A stretch of DNA of 64,000 nucleotides from Hexactinellida sp. DTS-2022 (taxonomy: Eukaryota > Porifera > Hexactinellida), in the NCBI GenBank assembly GCA_028753945.1, contig JAPNXP010000013.1, positions 930,001 through 994,000 on the forward strand, written 5' to 3'. The translations under genes and the position numbers were made by a program. A model generated the notes under the pieces. It saw only the letters and a program-made list of their open reading frames with translations, did not search any database and was not told the origin of the DNA. Below are positions 7,868-49,036 of this stretch, one piece after another. Within the stretch, counting starts at the first letter, position 1; the number at the start of each line of letters is the position of its first letter.

Positions 7868-8060
7868 GGAATTGTTGTCTGTTTGTGTGTGTGTTTGTTT
7901 GTTTGTCCAGAATTAATTGGAAAGACTACGAGTCCCAGAAAGCTGAAAATTTGTATACAGGGGTAATTTTGTACTGCGACAACGATCTTTTGGTTTTTGA
8001 AGAGAAATATTCACATTTGAAGGTGACAAAATATGTTAGCCAATTAAATTTGAGGGTTTG
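7868..8060 (+). repeat. 5' part of an interspersed repeat (TTTGTCCAGAATTAATTGG family)
   Basis: Begins near TTAAAAGAGGAATTGTTGTC, has a GT-rich run, then TTTGTCCAGAATTAATTGG and a long stretch nearly identical to 40441-40580. A diverged relative starts at 13797. It truncates the RhoGAP remnant. Confidence 0.7.
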
Positions 8061-8252
8061 TTGGATTAGCTAACTTATTTAATAATAAATGAGCCTGCCA
8101 CTGATTGATTGAAAATAAATTCATTTAACCAATCATTTGTGCCTGTAACACATTGCATGTATTTCTTTTTAGTATGCCTGACTATAAATACTTACTTTTC
8201 ATCAGAACCTACATTTTTTTTTACATTTTTGAATTCGATTCGATTCTTATTA

Positions 8253-9063
8253 TGCCTCCAAAACGGAAGCCAGGGATTCAAGGGGGGAACAAATTTAAAA
8301 CTCCGGCTGATCGGAAGCGTTGGGAGCGAGCCAACGAGACTCCGTCTCGACACGCAAAGACAGCTTCAGTCTTCTAGACGAGATGGAGAGACGGAGAGTG
8401 AAAATGCAGCTAGGCGCCAAACGCAAAAGCAGATCCAGTCCTCTTACAGAGAGTCTCAGACTGACGGGGAAACTGCTGCGCGCCTCGATAATCAGAGGGT
8501 ATATCAGTCTGCCTATTTAGAGTCTCAGACTGACGGGGAAACTGCTGCGCGCCTCGATAATCAGAGGGTATATCAGTCTGCCTATTTAGAGGCTCAGACT
8601 GACGAGGAAACTGCTGCGCGCCTCGATAATCAGAGGGTATATCAGTCTGCCTATTTAGAGTCTCAGACTGACGGGGAAACTGCTGCGCGCCTCGATAATC
8701 AGAGGGAATACCAATCTACCTATTTAGAGTCTCAGACTGACGGGGAAACTGCTGCGCGCCTCGATAATCAGAGGGAATACCAATCTACCTATTTAGAGTC
8801 TCAGACTGACGGGGAAACTGCTGCGCGCCTCGATAATCAGAGGGAATACCAGTCTGCCTATTTAGAGGCTCAGACTGACGGGGAAACTGCTGCGCGCCTC
8901 GATAATCAGAGGGTATATCAGTCTGCCTATTTAGAGGCTCAGACTGACGGGGAAACTGCTGCGCGCCTCGATAATCAAGAGGGAATACCAGTCTGCCTAT
9001 TTAGAGTCTCAGACTGACGAGGAAACTGCTGCGCGCCTCGATAATCAGAGGGAATACCAGTCA
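8253..9063 (+). pseudogene. Arg/Gln-rich coding minisatellite, possibly a Helitron-protein N-terminus
   Basis: An ATG at 8253 starts MPPKRKPGIQGG and a KRWERANE segment; after a frame change near 8340 the reading continues as TQRQLQSSRRDGETESENAARR and then enters 23-residue repeats of the type SQTDGETAARLDNQR.YQSAYLE. The 69-bp unit runs from 8452 to 9063 in about 8.9 copies with very few differences. An extra A at about 8980 shifts the frame in unit 8. Repeats of RANET..R.ARL..QR type are known at the N-termini of Helitron/PIF1-like proteins, and I infer, weakly, that this is such a fragment. No helicase or Rep domain follows. Confidence 0.6.
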
Positions 9064-43625: not shown

Positions 43626-46600
43626 ATGGCTACTAACTGTGCTCAGCTGCCCTCCTATCCTGTGACGCAGCCTATCGGGTTTGGTATCATAATAGTTAAT
43701 AAGTTCCAGAATATTCCTTCACACACTAGAAGAGGAGCTGAGAGAGAAATTGAGAATTTCTCAAATCTATTCTCACTCCTGGGACTCCATACCAAAGTGT
43801 ACGAGGATCTTACTAGTCACCAAATAGTGCAGCAACTGGTGAGCGTATCCAGGGACCCCGTCCTCTCTTCTCACTCTCTCTTAGCTGTAGCTATCAGGTA
43901 ATAGCTCTCTCTTAGCTGTAGCTATCAGGTTAGAGCAATAGCTCTCTCTTAGCTATAGCTATCAGGTAATAGCTCTCTCTTAGCTGTAGCTATCAGGTAA
44001 TAGCTCTCTCTTAGCTGTAGCTATCTGGTTAGAGCAATAGCTCTCTCTTAGCTGTAGCTATCTGGTTAGAGCAATAGCTCTCTCTTAGCTGTAGCTATCT
44101 GGTAATAGCTCTCTCTTAGCTGTAGCTATCTGGTAATAGCTCTCTCTTAGCTGTAGCTATCTGGTTAGAGCAATAGCTCTCTCTTAGCTGTAGCTATCTG
44201 GTTAGAGCAATAACTCTCTCCTAGCTGTAGCTATCTGGTTAGAGCAATAGCTCTCTCTTAGCTGTAGCTATCTGGTAATAGCTCTCTCTTAGCTGTAGCT
44301 ATCAGGTAATAGCTCTCTCTTAGCTGTAGCTATCTGGTTAGAGCAATAGCTCTCTCTTAGCTGTAGCTATCTGGTTAGAGCAATAGCTCTCTCTTAGCTG
44401 TAGCTATCTGGTTAGAGCAGCGTTTCTCAAACATATTTAAGCTCCGCCCCCCCTCTATCGAATTTAAAATGTTACGCCCCCTTCCAAAATATTCACACTT
44501 CAACTAATGTTATATAACAAAATTCTACATCCTCTACTGTTATAACACAAATATTTATGTGTATATGTTGTAGGCGAAATTGAGTACCAGGCGAGATTGA
44601 GTCTCATTTTCGCCTGGTACTCAATCTCGCCTAGGCGAGAATGAGTTTCAGGCGAAAATGAGACTCAATCTCGCCTGGTACTCAATTTCGCCTGCGACAT
44701 ATATATATATAAGTGTAACAAGGGCTTATGAATCTACTATATAAATCACAATTGATTAAGTTGTCCACAAAATATTTAGTGTGTTCGCCAGAGTTTCGCG
44801 CCCCCCCTTGGAAATGTTCTCGCCCCCCCTGGGGGTCGCGCCCCCCAGTTTGAGAACCACTGGGTTAGAGCAATAGCTCTCTCTTAACTGTAGCTCTCAT
44901 GGGAACGAGGAAGGACTGTTCGGGAGGAACATAGAGGAGCGGCTCCAGCTGAGCTCGGAGGGGCGGAGCTGCAGCGGTCTGAATGACGTCATATCCAGCC
45001 TTCAGATTCAAACTCTGTTCAACAGCAAGAGCTGTCCGCTGCTGGAGGGGAAGCCTAAGCTGCTGCTGCTTAATGGGTGTCGGGGCGGGGAGAAGGAGGG
45101 GCTCTACGGGTACGAGAAGGACGGGAGGGCGACTGAGGCTCTCCCGACACAGGGCAGCACTGTCTGGTCAGACTTCCTGGTCGTGTGGTCAGCTGTGGAC
45201 GGATACCAATCTGTCAGACACGTGTCTACGGGGTGTGTGTGGTATTGTTTCTATTTCTAATTATACAGCCAGGTGAAGTTAATTGCCTGGTTATTAGCGA
45301 GATTTTTCGAATATACTGACGACGCGAAATGCTGAGATTATATTTACTTTTTATTGTCAATAATTTTTCCTAAGTCAAACAATAATGATTGCTAGTTAAT
45401 AAATTAACAGAATCACTTGGCAATTCCCTATATCATAATAATCGGTTCTGTAAAATCAATATGAGAAATTGAGAATTGATTAAAAATTGATTAAAATTGA
45501 TGAGTCGTATATTAGAATATTTATAAATCATATGTAGTATGTAGGGAATTATCCAGGAGCGCGAGACGCTCCTTTTGGAATATGATTTTAGGGGGAAAAA
45601 TTATTAGGAGCGTGAAAAATTGGAATCGTCTCCTATACCGTACATTAATTTGTGATCAGACGTATGAAAATTGGGTAGTATGTACTTGTCGAGATAATAA
45701 TAAATGATATCCGAACTGAAGGTAAAAATTTGAATAGACTGAGTTGAAAACAAGTTATTTATTATATATAGCCTAATGCTCCCGCTATGTCTCCATATGT
45801 TATTCATATTAACTGCGTGTTTAGGTCTGTGTTCATCTCAGTGCTGTGTGAGGTGCTGGAGAGACTGAGTGGGTACTCTCTGGAGCAGCTGATGCCTGTG
45901 GTTAATCAGAAACTGATCGAGAGGACTACTCGCTTCTGCGAGAAGGAGAGTCGCATGGTAGCTGAGTGCTGTGTCTGGACATCCACACTAAAGAGACAGC
46001 TCTGTCTACACAGGTATATACAGACTGTTTATTCATATTTGTATTCATTCATAACTATAGGGCTTTTCATGACTTTGCATTGACTCAGTACTTTCGAATA
46101 CAGTAGAACTTAACTTGTTTACCCGACGCCCATTGTGATAAGAAAAAAGTGTCAGTTCTACTGCATACCGGATTATATAGGGTCGGATTATGCAGGTTCT
46201 ACTGTATTCGTATTTATCATGAAAAGCTCTTACAACGCATACTCACAATTTTCAAGATATCTTCCTTTGAAATACAAATATTTATTTACTGTATTTCCAC
46301 GAATAGTAATCCACCTTAAGTAGGCTTGAAATTACTAATCGCCTGGTTGACTCATCTCTTTCAAACTAGATAAATATCGATATATACTAATAGATTGTAA
46401 TTGCAATTTATTTATATGCCGATATTAAAATTATTTTATAAGTATGAAGACCAGGCTAGTACTTACACTTTATTTATCACATCGACCTAATGTCTATTTG
46501 AATTAATTCCTATCCCTGGATTACAATTGCCCACTAGTGTTGTAGGTATTATTAGTCTATGTTTAGTTCTAAGTCGAGGAGTGCTACATTCCGCCTCTCA

Positions 46601-47352
46601 TTCGAAGAAGCAGTCGACCTGGAAGTGGACGAGTTCCCTTGCATAGAGAGTCTGCACTCCATTTCTCTCAATTCTATTTCAATCGCAGACAGCCTAACGC
46701 TATCTGGAAGCGACCCTACCACTTGCATAGCTATAGCTAACACCACATTCCTGGACATCACCAAGGAAACTGCGTCTAAACTGAAGATAGGAGACAGAGT
46801 GCTGTTACTGGACATGCTGGATTCCAAGAAGAACCTTCTCTTCATTAGGAGGTACTCTCTGCACAGTGCACTGTATTCTAATTATATTCGCAACTCACTG
46901 TATTCTAATTATACTCACAACTCACTGTATTAACAGGCAATGTTTGTAGTGTATCTTCCATGGATACGGGATATGTACCCAGGAATGTGATTAAACCGGA
47001 TGAGGATCTCGAGACAGAAATCTGGTTCCGGAAAGGGATGGATAAGAAGAGCGCAGACACTATTCTGTCCCCCTGTCCCGACGGGACATTCCTGGTCCGA
47101 TCCAGTATAATAAACCCGTATCACTACCGTCTTGTCATAGTTTCAGAACACAAAGTGCATCAGTATAAGATTAAGTATCTGCCGTTTGATTGGATGTATA
47201 TTCTGTCAGTGTACCATTTCTCCTCTCTGAGTGCTATGGTGTCCTACCTGTCTCACCATAGGAGAGTCTGTTGTAAGCTTGCATATCCGTATACACAGCA
47301 GGAGTGCTATGGAGTTGCTAACAGTGCTAACAGTGCTAATAGTGCTAACTGA
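43626..47352 (+). CDS. Caspase-SH3-SH2 fusion protein
   Basis: Five exons join in phase 2 at every junction: 43626-43897, 44894-45232, 45825-46013, 46567-46851, 46950-47352; 495 residues. Residues 1-200 are a caspase large subunit: FGIIIVNKF, TRRGAEREI (Arg for P1 Asp), SSHGNEEGLFG (catalytic His) and LLLNGCRGG (catalytic Cys; NGCRG instead of QACRG). Exon 3 is the small subunit: SVRHVSTGSVFIS (second P1 Arg), LCEVLERL, ending CVWTSTLKRQLCLH. Exons 4-5 then give an SH3-like domain (KLKIGDRVLLLD, GYVPRNVIK) and an SH2 domain: DLETEIWFRKGM, DGTFLVRSS (phosphotyrosine-binding Arg), VHQYKIKYL. No kinase domain follows; it ends in a SAN repeat. The SH3 lacks the ALYDY and WW residues. It would be a caspase steered by phosphotyrosine. 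Two adjacent genes (caspase; SLAP-like adaptor) are the alternative, but the caspase exon ends at a donor with no close stop. Confidence 0.75.
43870..44417 (+). repeat. Minisatellite built from the caspase exon 1/intron 1 junction
   Basis: The last 27 bases of exon 1 plus the donor (CTCTCTCTTAGCTGTAGC then TATCAG/GTAATAG) are repeated about 15 more times in 31- and 37-bp units. Each unit contains an acceptor-like CTCTCTTAGCTGTAG and many contain a donor-like CAGGTAAT. The true acceptor at 44893 is the last, diverged unit. Confidence 0.9.
44418..44862. mobile_element. hAT MITE in caspase intron 1
   Basis: Ends CAGCGTTTCTCAAAC and GTTTGAGAACCACTG, flanked by GGTTAGAG at 44410-44417 and 44863-44870. 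The CAGTGGTTCTCAAAC end is widespread among hAT elements. A further element is nested at 44566-44699. Confidence 0.92.
44566..44699. mobile_element. 134-bp palindromic MITE, TGT/ACA ends
   Basis: TGTTGTAGGCGAAATTGAG at the left and CTCAATTTCGCCTGCGACA at the right, flanked by TATA on both sides. Inside are repeated CAGGCGAGATTGAGTCTCA words. The ends resemble those of the 2364-5848 element. Confidence 0.75.
46101..46204. mobile_element. TA-target MITE in caspase-SH3 intron
   Basis: CAGTAGAACTTAACTTG to GCAGGTTCTACTG, bordered by TA. 104 bp, pogo/Tc1-like ends. Confidence 0.75.
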
Positions 47353-47791
47353 GATAACAGCTGGTTTGTACGTTTGTGAAATTATGTTTAATTGTCAACT
47401 TATTAAATTTATTTATTTACTACTATCAACAGAGTAAGCTTTCCAGACACGAAACAATTGAGTAAGCGCTTGTACCGCATCCCTAAGGTTGATGCTTACA
47501 TTTCTGATATGTAGATAGATCATTGGTTAATTTATAAATAGTAACTCTTGAGTTGTTAAATTGGACATCATTATTATCCTGTGTCCCAAGGCTAAACTGT
47601 TGAGGTATAAGCGATATTGCCATCTAAGGAACTATGCTTAATGGGAACTATTAATATAAGTTTATCGCTATGTATTATATGAGAATGAACCCTGAATATA
47701 AACGTGGTTCAGTGAACTACAAATGTGAGTTATCTTTGTGTTTAACTTTATATGTTATTCAGTTGATAAGCAGTTAGTAGCACATCGTACA
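47353..47791. other. Intergenic between SH2 and NHL genes
   Basis: No gene. GTTATTCAG just before 47761 could be an acceptor for a 5' non-coding exon of the NHL gene, whose frame is open upstream of its first ATG. Confidence 0.45.
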
Positions 47792-49036
47792 ATGGCTAGT
47801 GCTTATGGTGTGGGAGAAGAGAGCTTCCTCTCTCACGTGGAGAGAGTGCGTAGCGAGATACACACTAAGTTCTTAAGAGCTCACGAGCTGCTACAAGCTA
47901 GAGAAGCCGATCTGATAGCAGAGTTACAGAGATTGGTAGACGAGTATACGGGAGATAAAATAACTCTACAAATCAAACAGTTGTCGATTTCTAAAGATGC
48001 TCTGAGGGACACTCTTACGGAAAATGAGAACAAAGAAATTCTCGATCTGAATTTAGCTTCAATTGATGCACGCATTGCAGAATTACAAACTAAACTCCAG
48101 AAAGCTAAAGATACTTACCAGAGTGTATCATTTGAATGGAATAGTGATTTAGAAAAGAAACTGAGTGTAGCAGGCGAGATACGACTTAATGCTGCGAAAG
48201 AAGGAATACGAGACTATAAGCAGATAGGAGATCCTATTGCGGTATTTGGGAAACACAGCAATGAAGGAACTTCACCTGGCGTGTTCTGTTATCCCAAGGG
48301 TATTGCCATTAATCCTGAGAATAATTCCATATACATTTGTGATGGAGGTAATGACCGTGTGCAAGTTTATAACAAATCATTTGAATTTTTATTTCAGTTC
48401 AGTGATAAGATGAATGGACCAGTTGGTATTTGTATCAAACAGAACAAAGTATACGTCACACAATACAGTTCTAATTGCCTCAATGTGTATTCTACTGAGG
48501 GTCAATTTCTTAACTCTGTTGGAGTGAAAGGAAAGAAAGAGTTAATGTTTGATGGACCAAGAGGACTTGATATTTCCACTGAAAAAGATAGAATATTTAT
48601 AGCTGAATCTGACAATGATAGAATTCAATGTTTGAATTTACATCTCAAATTTAACTCTTACATTTATGGTATTTATGGTGCTAAAGATGTCAATTTAACT
48701 TCTAATGAGATTATAGTATTGTCTAATCGTAATCCTTGTGTCTCTCTATACACTTATTCTCATCAATTAATTCGCGAAATGATCCCTAAAAGTGCAGGTT
48801 TTCCAGTTGATTCCCCTTCTTTTTTCATCCTAGATAAATCCTTAAATATCCTCATTACCGACTTTAAGAGTAATTTTGTTTGTATTTTCTCTTTTGCAGG
48901 AGAGCAAATACACAGATTTGGCAAAGGAGAAGAGAAGAGAGGCGGTTTCTTAGAACCCACTGGAATAACAATCGATAATGAAGGGAGGATTATCGTTGTA
49001 TCTTATAACCCAGAATATTGTATTCAGATATTTTGA
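47792..49036 (+). CDS. Coiled-coil NHL-repeat protein (TRIM-NHL-like, no RING)
   Basis: 414 residues in one exon. Residues about 10-140 are helical coiled coil (ESFLSHVERVRSEIH, LIAELQRLVDEYTGDK). Residues about 145-414 form a six-bladed NHL propeller: YPKGIAINPENNSIYICDGG with NDRVQVYN, MNGPVGICIKQNKVYV, DGPRGLDISTEKDRIFIAES with NDRIQCLN, and a last blade FLEPTGITIDNEGRIIVVS. In TRIM-NHL proteins the propeller binds RNA or protein; here RING and B-box are missing, so ligase activity is not expected unless upstream exons supply it. Proteins of this build are, from memory, abundant in sponge genomes. The start is the first ATG. Confidence 0.85.
   Translation: MASAYGVGEESFLSHVERVRSEIHTKFLRAHELLQAREADLIAELQRLVDEYTGDKITLQIKQLSISKDALRDTLTENENKEILDLNLASIDARIAELQTKLQKAKDTYQSVSFEWNSDLEKKLSVAGEIRLNAAKEGIRDYKQIGDPIAVFGKHSNEGTSPGVFCYPKGIAINPENNSIYICDGGNDRVQVYNKSFEFLFQFSDKMNGPVGICIKQNKVYVTQYSSNCLNVYSTEGQFLNSVGVKGKKELMFDGPRGLDISTEKDRIFIAESDNDRIQCLNLHLKFNSYIYGIYGAKDVNLTSNEIIVLSNRNPCVSLYTYSHQLIREMIPKSAGFPVDSPSFFILDKSLNILITDFKSNFVCIFSFAGEQIHRFGKGEEKRGGFLEPTGITIDNEGRIIVVSYNPEYCIQIF

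Follow-up and report, generated by a model that had tools for sequence, protein, structure and literature searches.

The caspases known to date are controlled through death-fold prodomains at the N-terminus or, from outside, by tyrosine kinases. SH2 domains recruit their proteins to phosphotyrosine sites. Caspase-8 is regulated by Src, as a Src substrate (PMC4839753, partial text). The TRADD-N proteins of Amphimedon have variable C-termini, which include SH3, SH2 or caspase domains (PMC8195603, partial text).

We analyzed a 64,000-nt stretch of the genome of the glass sponge Hexactinellida sp. DTS-2022 (the window). We propose that positions 43626-47352 of its forward strand are probably one gene, which would encode a prodomain-less caspase with a Src-like SH3-SH2 tail at its C-terminus. 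As with caspase-8 and Src, caspase activity would be tied to tyrosine kinase signalling, but caspase-8 is a Src substrate without an SH2 domain of its own (PMC4839753). The Amphimedon proteins are similar in that they, too, come from death-signalling genes of a sponge in which C-terminal domains have been swapped; in the part of that report covered here, however, SH2 and caspase are alternatives and are not joined to each other (PMC8195603). If our proposal is correct, a caspase with its own SH2 domain has a built-in phosphotyrosine input to proteolysis. Direct phosphotyrosine control of the predicted caspase is plausible.

The initial annotation knew of no caspase with this architecture. We also found no caspase-SH3-SH2 protein in the literature searched, whose coverage of subscription papers was thin, and the portions of PMC8242945 and PMC6040629 covered contain no caspase-SH2/SH3 fusion. 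Among 11 pattern-matching stretches from viral_contigs and 111 from genome_contigs, two collections not designed to hold animal genomes, no relative was confirmed.

The gene model has five exons, which encode 495 amino acids and end with a stop codon. The features of the locus, all on the + strand except where noted, are:

43626..43897, +: exon 1, which carries the ATG and the beginning of the large subunit of the caspase; phase 2 donor CAG/GTAATA
43728-43730, +: codon of R35, in exon 1
44894..45232, +: exon 2, with His93, Cys153 in NGCRG, Asp167 and R199; on its own it matches the Pfam caspase domain at 1.1e-08
44898-44900, 45078-45080, 45120-45122 and 45216-45218, +: codons of His93, Cys153, Asp167 and R199, in exon 2
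45825..46013, +: exon 3, with the small subunit as far as the final strand of the caspase; phase 2 donor CAG/GTATAT at 46014
46014..46566, +: proposed intron 3 (553 nt), with a strong donor and a contested acceptor
46095..46210, no strand assigned: short repeat element within intron 3; its inverted ends are 15 nt long
46544-46545, +: AG of the rival acceptor (TTGTAG/G), with an exon from 46546 in the same phase; TATTAT, then the stop TAG at 46553-46555
46559..46561, +: in-frame ATG that precedes the proposed acceptor by 8 nt, with T at -3 and T at +4; a separate SH3-SH2 gene might start here
46567..46851, +: exon 4, with a linker of about 54 residues that includes LEVD (residues 285-288), then the first part of the SH3-like domain
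46950..47352, +: exon 5, with the end of the SH3-like domain, the SH2 domain (47023-47247) and the stop
47098-47100, +: codon of Arg betaB5 (FLVRSS) of the SH2 domain, in exon 5

All four junctions are GT-AG, and all are in phase 2, the latter as originally described. In 25 housekeeping introns from the same genome, phases 0, 1 and 2 occur 18, 6 and 1 times, so four of four in phase 2 is more than chance. The least certain boundary is intron 2, whose donor (GGG/GTGTGT) scores low: exons 2 and 3 can be joined in six stop-free ways, and the one that we chose aligns to caspase-3 without gaps. A minisatellite at 43874-44419 of the window (37 nt unit, 15.9 copies) begins inside exon 1 and continues into intron 1. 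Because it starts inside the exon, its copies repeat the exon end and the donor-like site through intron 1. The repeat element in intron 3 has at least 39 further copies in the same genome (40 of 182 candidates were scored).

A domain search of the spliced protein bore out the caspase and SH2 assignments. Residues 21-244 match the Pfam caspase domain (PF00656, 2.8e-28), and the start codon lies just a few residues ahead of this domain. Against PDB, the best match for the caspase part is caspase-3a (2.2e-23). The SSHG and NGCRG motifs and both P1-binding arginines (R35 and R199) are all present, and the two arginines align with the S1 arginines of caspase-3. Asp167 aligns with the inter-subunit aspartate of caspase-3. 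Caspase-3 itself has the motif QACRG, with glutamine as the third S1 residue; because the motif of the window protein is NGCRG, its third S1 residue is Asn151. In an alignment of the window caspase with its four closest single-frame paralogs, asparagine is found at this position in all five rows, and His93, Cys153, R35 and R199 are invariant. The window protein shares the domain order, the His-Cys pair, the two S1 arginines and the inter-subunit aspartate with effector caspases (caspase-3/6/7, C14A), but it differs in having NGCRG instead of QACRG, an SH3-SH2 tail, and no long prodomain in the model.

The SH2 domain is secure (Pfam 7.3e-10, residues 387-461). The predicted structure of exon 5 is an SH2 fold (mean pLDDT 68.4, with 78-85 in the core), and in a Foldseek search with this model, the best 50 rows are all SH2 domains or SH2-containing proteins (best PDB match, an SH2, 3.1e-06). 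Arg betaB5 is conserved in 14 of 14 aligned rows. The betaD4 histidine is replaced by glutamine in the window, while the 13 other rows, from 11 distinct loci, all have histidine. The SH3 assignment, part of the original description along with SH2 and FLVRSS, held up less well: Pfam made no SH3 call in the 495-residue protein at E 1, and the SH3 stretch by itself has Src SH3 as its best PDB match with E of just 0.071. When the tail is searched from inside the SH3 through the SH2 (phmmer against PDB), Src comes out on top (1.9e-12), and Src-like adapter 2 matches at 2.7e-05. The PxxP-binding motifs of SH3 domains are ALYDY, WW and SNY, and at these positions the spliced protein has AIANTT, NLLF and RNV. 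We view this region as a weak, eroded SH3 domain, which probably does not bind PxxP ligands in the standard manner. The tail shares the SH3-SH2 order and the linker with the Src-family cassette and with SLAP-type adaptors, which consist of SH3 and SH2 only; it differs in having no kinase domain, lacks the SH3 ligand residues and His betaD4, and sits behind a caspase.

Whether the caspase and the tail belong to one protein rests on the junction 46013/46567. We built splice models from 32 introns of the same genome (14 from chaperonin/CCT genes, 11 from proteasome or myosin genes, and 7 from caspase paralogs). Two myosin stretches, one proteasome intron and four CCT exon pairs were left out of training as unusable or because of gaps, and two more were left out for missing sequence. 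A genome-wide SH3-SH2 search gave six weak SH2 matches outside the window (best 4.9e-5), so there is no close SH3-SH2 paralog in the genome for comparing splice sites.

The donor at 46014 is good. With a score of 8.9 to 9.4 bits, it ranks first among the 34 GTs in 45901-46560; this score is reached by 3 of 25 housekeeping donors and by 9 of all 32 training donors. A random 60-nt stretch contains a donor this good in 1.9-2.3% of draws. The caspase part does end at this donor, as the initial annotation noticed, but its remark that there is no nearby stop was loose: if the donor is not used, the frame continues for 23 residues and meets a stop at 46081-46083.

The acceptor is contested. Position 46567 restores the frame, as first claimed, but the rival acceptor 21 nt upstream has the same phase and leads to a stop, so that the caspase would end with ...LHRYY. 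Each of these two acceptors leads in three of six splice models. Under the 21-intron model, 46567 is the best of the 37 AGs in 46041-46700, with a score of 7.35 versus 4.71 for 46546; with the 14 CCT introns alone, 46546 scores 6.03 and 46567 scores 2.22. The models that prefer 46567 contain the 7 caspase-paralog introns or skip the first exon base. A random one-frame stretch of 170 nt matches the score of 46567 in 36% of draws under the CCT-only model and in 4.8% of draws under the 21-intron model. For the true acceptors of the 32 introns, the nearest upstream AG is at least 11 nt away (18 of the 32 have one within the 40 nt examined, and the rest have none). The AG at 46554-46555 lies 11 nt before 46567, which equals the shortest of these distances, and the nearest AG upstream of 46546 is 8 nt away.

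So we also considered that there might be two neighboring genes: a stand-alone caspase, ending at 46083 or via 46546, and an SH3-SH2 adaptor that starts at ATG 46559 or in a further 5' exon, similar to the SLAP-type adaptors that consist of SH3 and SH2 only. This would explain the in-frame ATG just ahead of the proposed acceptor, although its sequence context is poor. It also fits with the rival acceptor, which leads to a stop and is ahead in half of the models as well as in the CCT-only model; however, an mRNA spliced to 46546 would still hold the SH3-SH2 exons, with the stop 296 nt before a further junction. If the caspase instead ended by read-through, nothing would be left for the donor at 46014 to do. 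The gap before the SH3-SH2 exons contains ATTAAA (at 46424), which is also found after the final stop (at 47402), but it lacks AATAAA. The gap between the final stop and the first ATG of the next gene (47352 to 47792) is of similar size, so distance is no argument for an intron. Neither poly(A) hexamers nor gap length separates the two readings, and we dropped them as discriminators. Finally, as a point against two genes, C-terminal extensions do occur in other members of this caspase clade (see below). Overall, we think that two genes are rather unlikely. A single protein is the simplest reading in which both the SH3-SH2 frame, which is intact, and the strong donor are used. The domains, coordinates and frame of the proposed fusion all stand; splicing into one transcript is only probable, because 46546 competes with 46567 and ATG 46559 allows a separate gene.

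The rest of the genome provides context for the fusion. We found at least 64 caspase matches and at least 62 SH2 matches. The caspase and the SH2 of the window are 2 kb apart; among the other matches listed, no caspase lies within 30 kb of an SH2, and 33 kb separate the next pair, so there is no second close pair among them. The window caspase shares 46% identity with its nearest paralog. In a midpoint-rooted tree of 21 rows selected from the 52-64 caspase matches (not included were L035, L049 and the first of the caspases on C10, L046, 6152-6745, reverse strand), the window caspase falls in a clade of 12 rows with single-frame and multi-exon paralogs (support 99/97); the tree gives no order for the window within the clade. 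Four paralogs in this clade (L018, L019, L021 and L022) stay in one open frame beyond the end of the caspase. Pfam identified NHL repeats in three of these four tails and made no call in the fourth (L022). The three caspase-NHL paralogs, each in a single open frame, are:

C1:880k: L018
C2:2151k: L019
C1:892k: L021

These proteins resemble the window protein in their caspase clade, in NGCRG, and in having a partner domain behind the caspase. They differ in that the partner is an NHL propeller and in that the caspase and its tail form one uninterrupted frame. One paper in the literature searched that brings together caspase, NHL and sponge genome does not describe a caspase-NHL fusion in the part covered. 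If our proposal is correct, caspases in this clade are gaining new inputs via the swapping of C-terminal exons. The variety of C-terminal partners supports the earlier suggestion that phase-2 introns would allow exon shuffling.

Multi-exon paralogs share intron 1 of the window gene (seven were recovered with both sites) and are missing intron 2. In 9 of the 10 multi-exon paralogs examined, a GT in phase 2 lies past the caspase domain, and the tenth is in phase 0. These donors score from 1.2 to 10.5 bits (21-intron model). In 7 of the 10, the site begins with GTAA, so that TAA is read in phase 2, and an eighth has TAG one codon on; in the two copies on C10, the site is GTTAGT and no stop follows directly. 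Because the GTAA doubles as an in-frame stop, those genes may simply end there. Conservation of GTAA is weakened as proof of a donor, as in phase 2 it always reads TAA.

Several paralogs have lost the active-site cysteine or its motif (NGNRG or NGWKEG). This raises another explanation, in which the fusion frame is present but there is no working regulated protease, and the window copy, one of a family that is expanding, is in decay or has altered catalysis. The eroded SH3, the change from histidine to glutamine in the SH2, and NGCRG in place of QACRG would fit with this. But the catalytic pair and both S1 arginines are intact and are invariant across the five aligned rows, and all five exons are open. 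We consider decay to be very unlikely.

Under our preferred explanation, one fused gene, the caspase would come from a local expansion of NGCRG caspases. A phase-2 intron would mark the boundary of their domain, and various partners would have been added after it: three paralogs gained NHL propellers, and the window gene gained SH3-SH2. By analogy with other SH2 proteins, we infer that the SH2 domain would dock the zymogen on phosphotyrosine proteins, which would place or cluster it and raise its local concentration. Cleavage between the subunits, at Asp167, would then activate it. The main task of the eroded SH3 would be to brace the SH2, and LEVD in the linker could let the protease free itself. 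Because the acceptors at 46546 and 46567 are 21 nt apart and share a phase, they could also be a switch. We speculate that, in a clade that swaps C-terminal partners behind a phase-2 intron, splicing to 46546 would give a free caspase and splicing to 46567 would give a phosphotyrosine-docked caspase that could release itself by a cut at LEVD; as a whole, this scheme seems quite unlikely.

We also noticed other arrangements of caspases in this genome. At C11:722-730k (L045), there are four tandem caspase copies, one of which has NGNRG replacing the cysteine motif. At C4:881388-891500 (L008, L048, L047), a large frame ends in a caspase, and L002, L003, L005, L006 and L007 are similar. The C4 frame starts with a GTPase stretch (Roc at 26.3 bits, cut-off 27), and there was no call for a COR domain in this frame. 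Upstream at C4, a phase-2 donor belongs to a small caspase and a phase-2 acceptor to a frame of 504 aa; possibly, these are parts of the same gene. Pfam found no known domain in the C4 piece beyond the caspase (L047:1-606), the would-be next exon. Directly behind the SH3-SH2 exons of the window is an intact NHL-repeat gene (47792-49036, 8.7e-21). And on C10 (L046 and L080), a frame on the reverse strand (8024-8314) appears by eye to be NHL-like and lies about 1.3 kb past a caspase copy.
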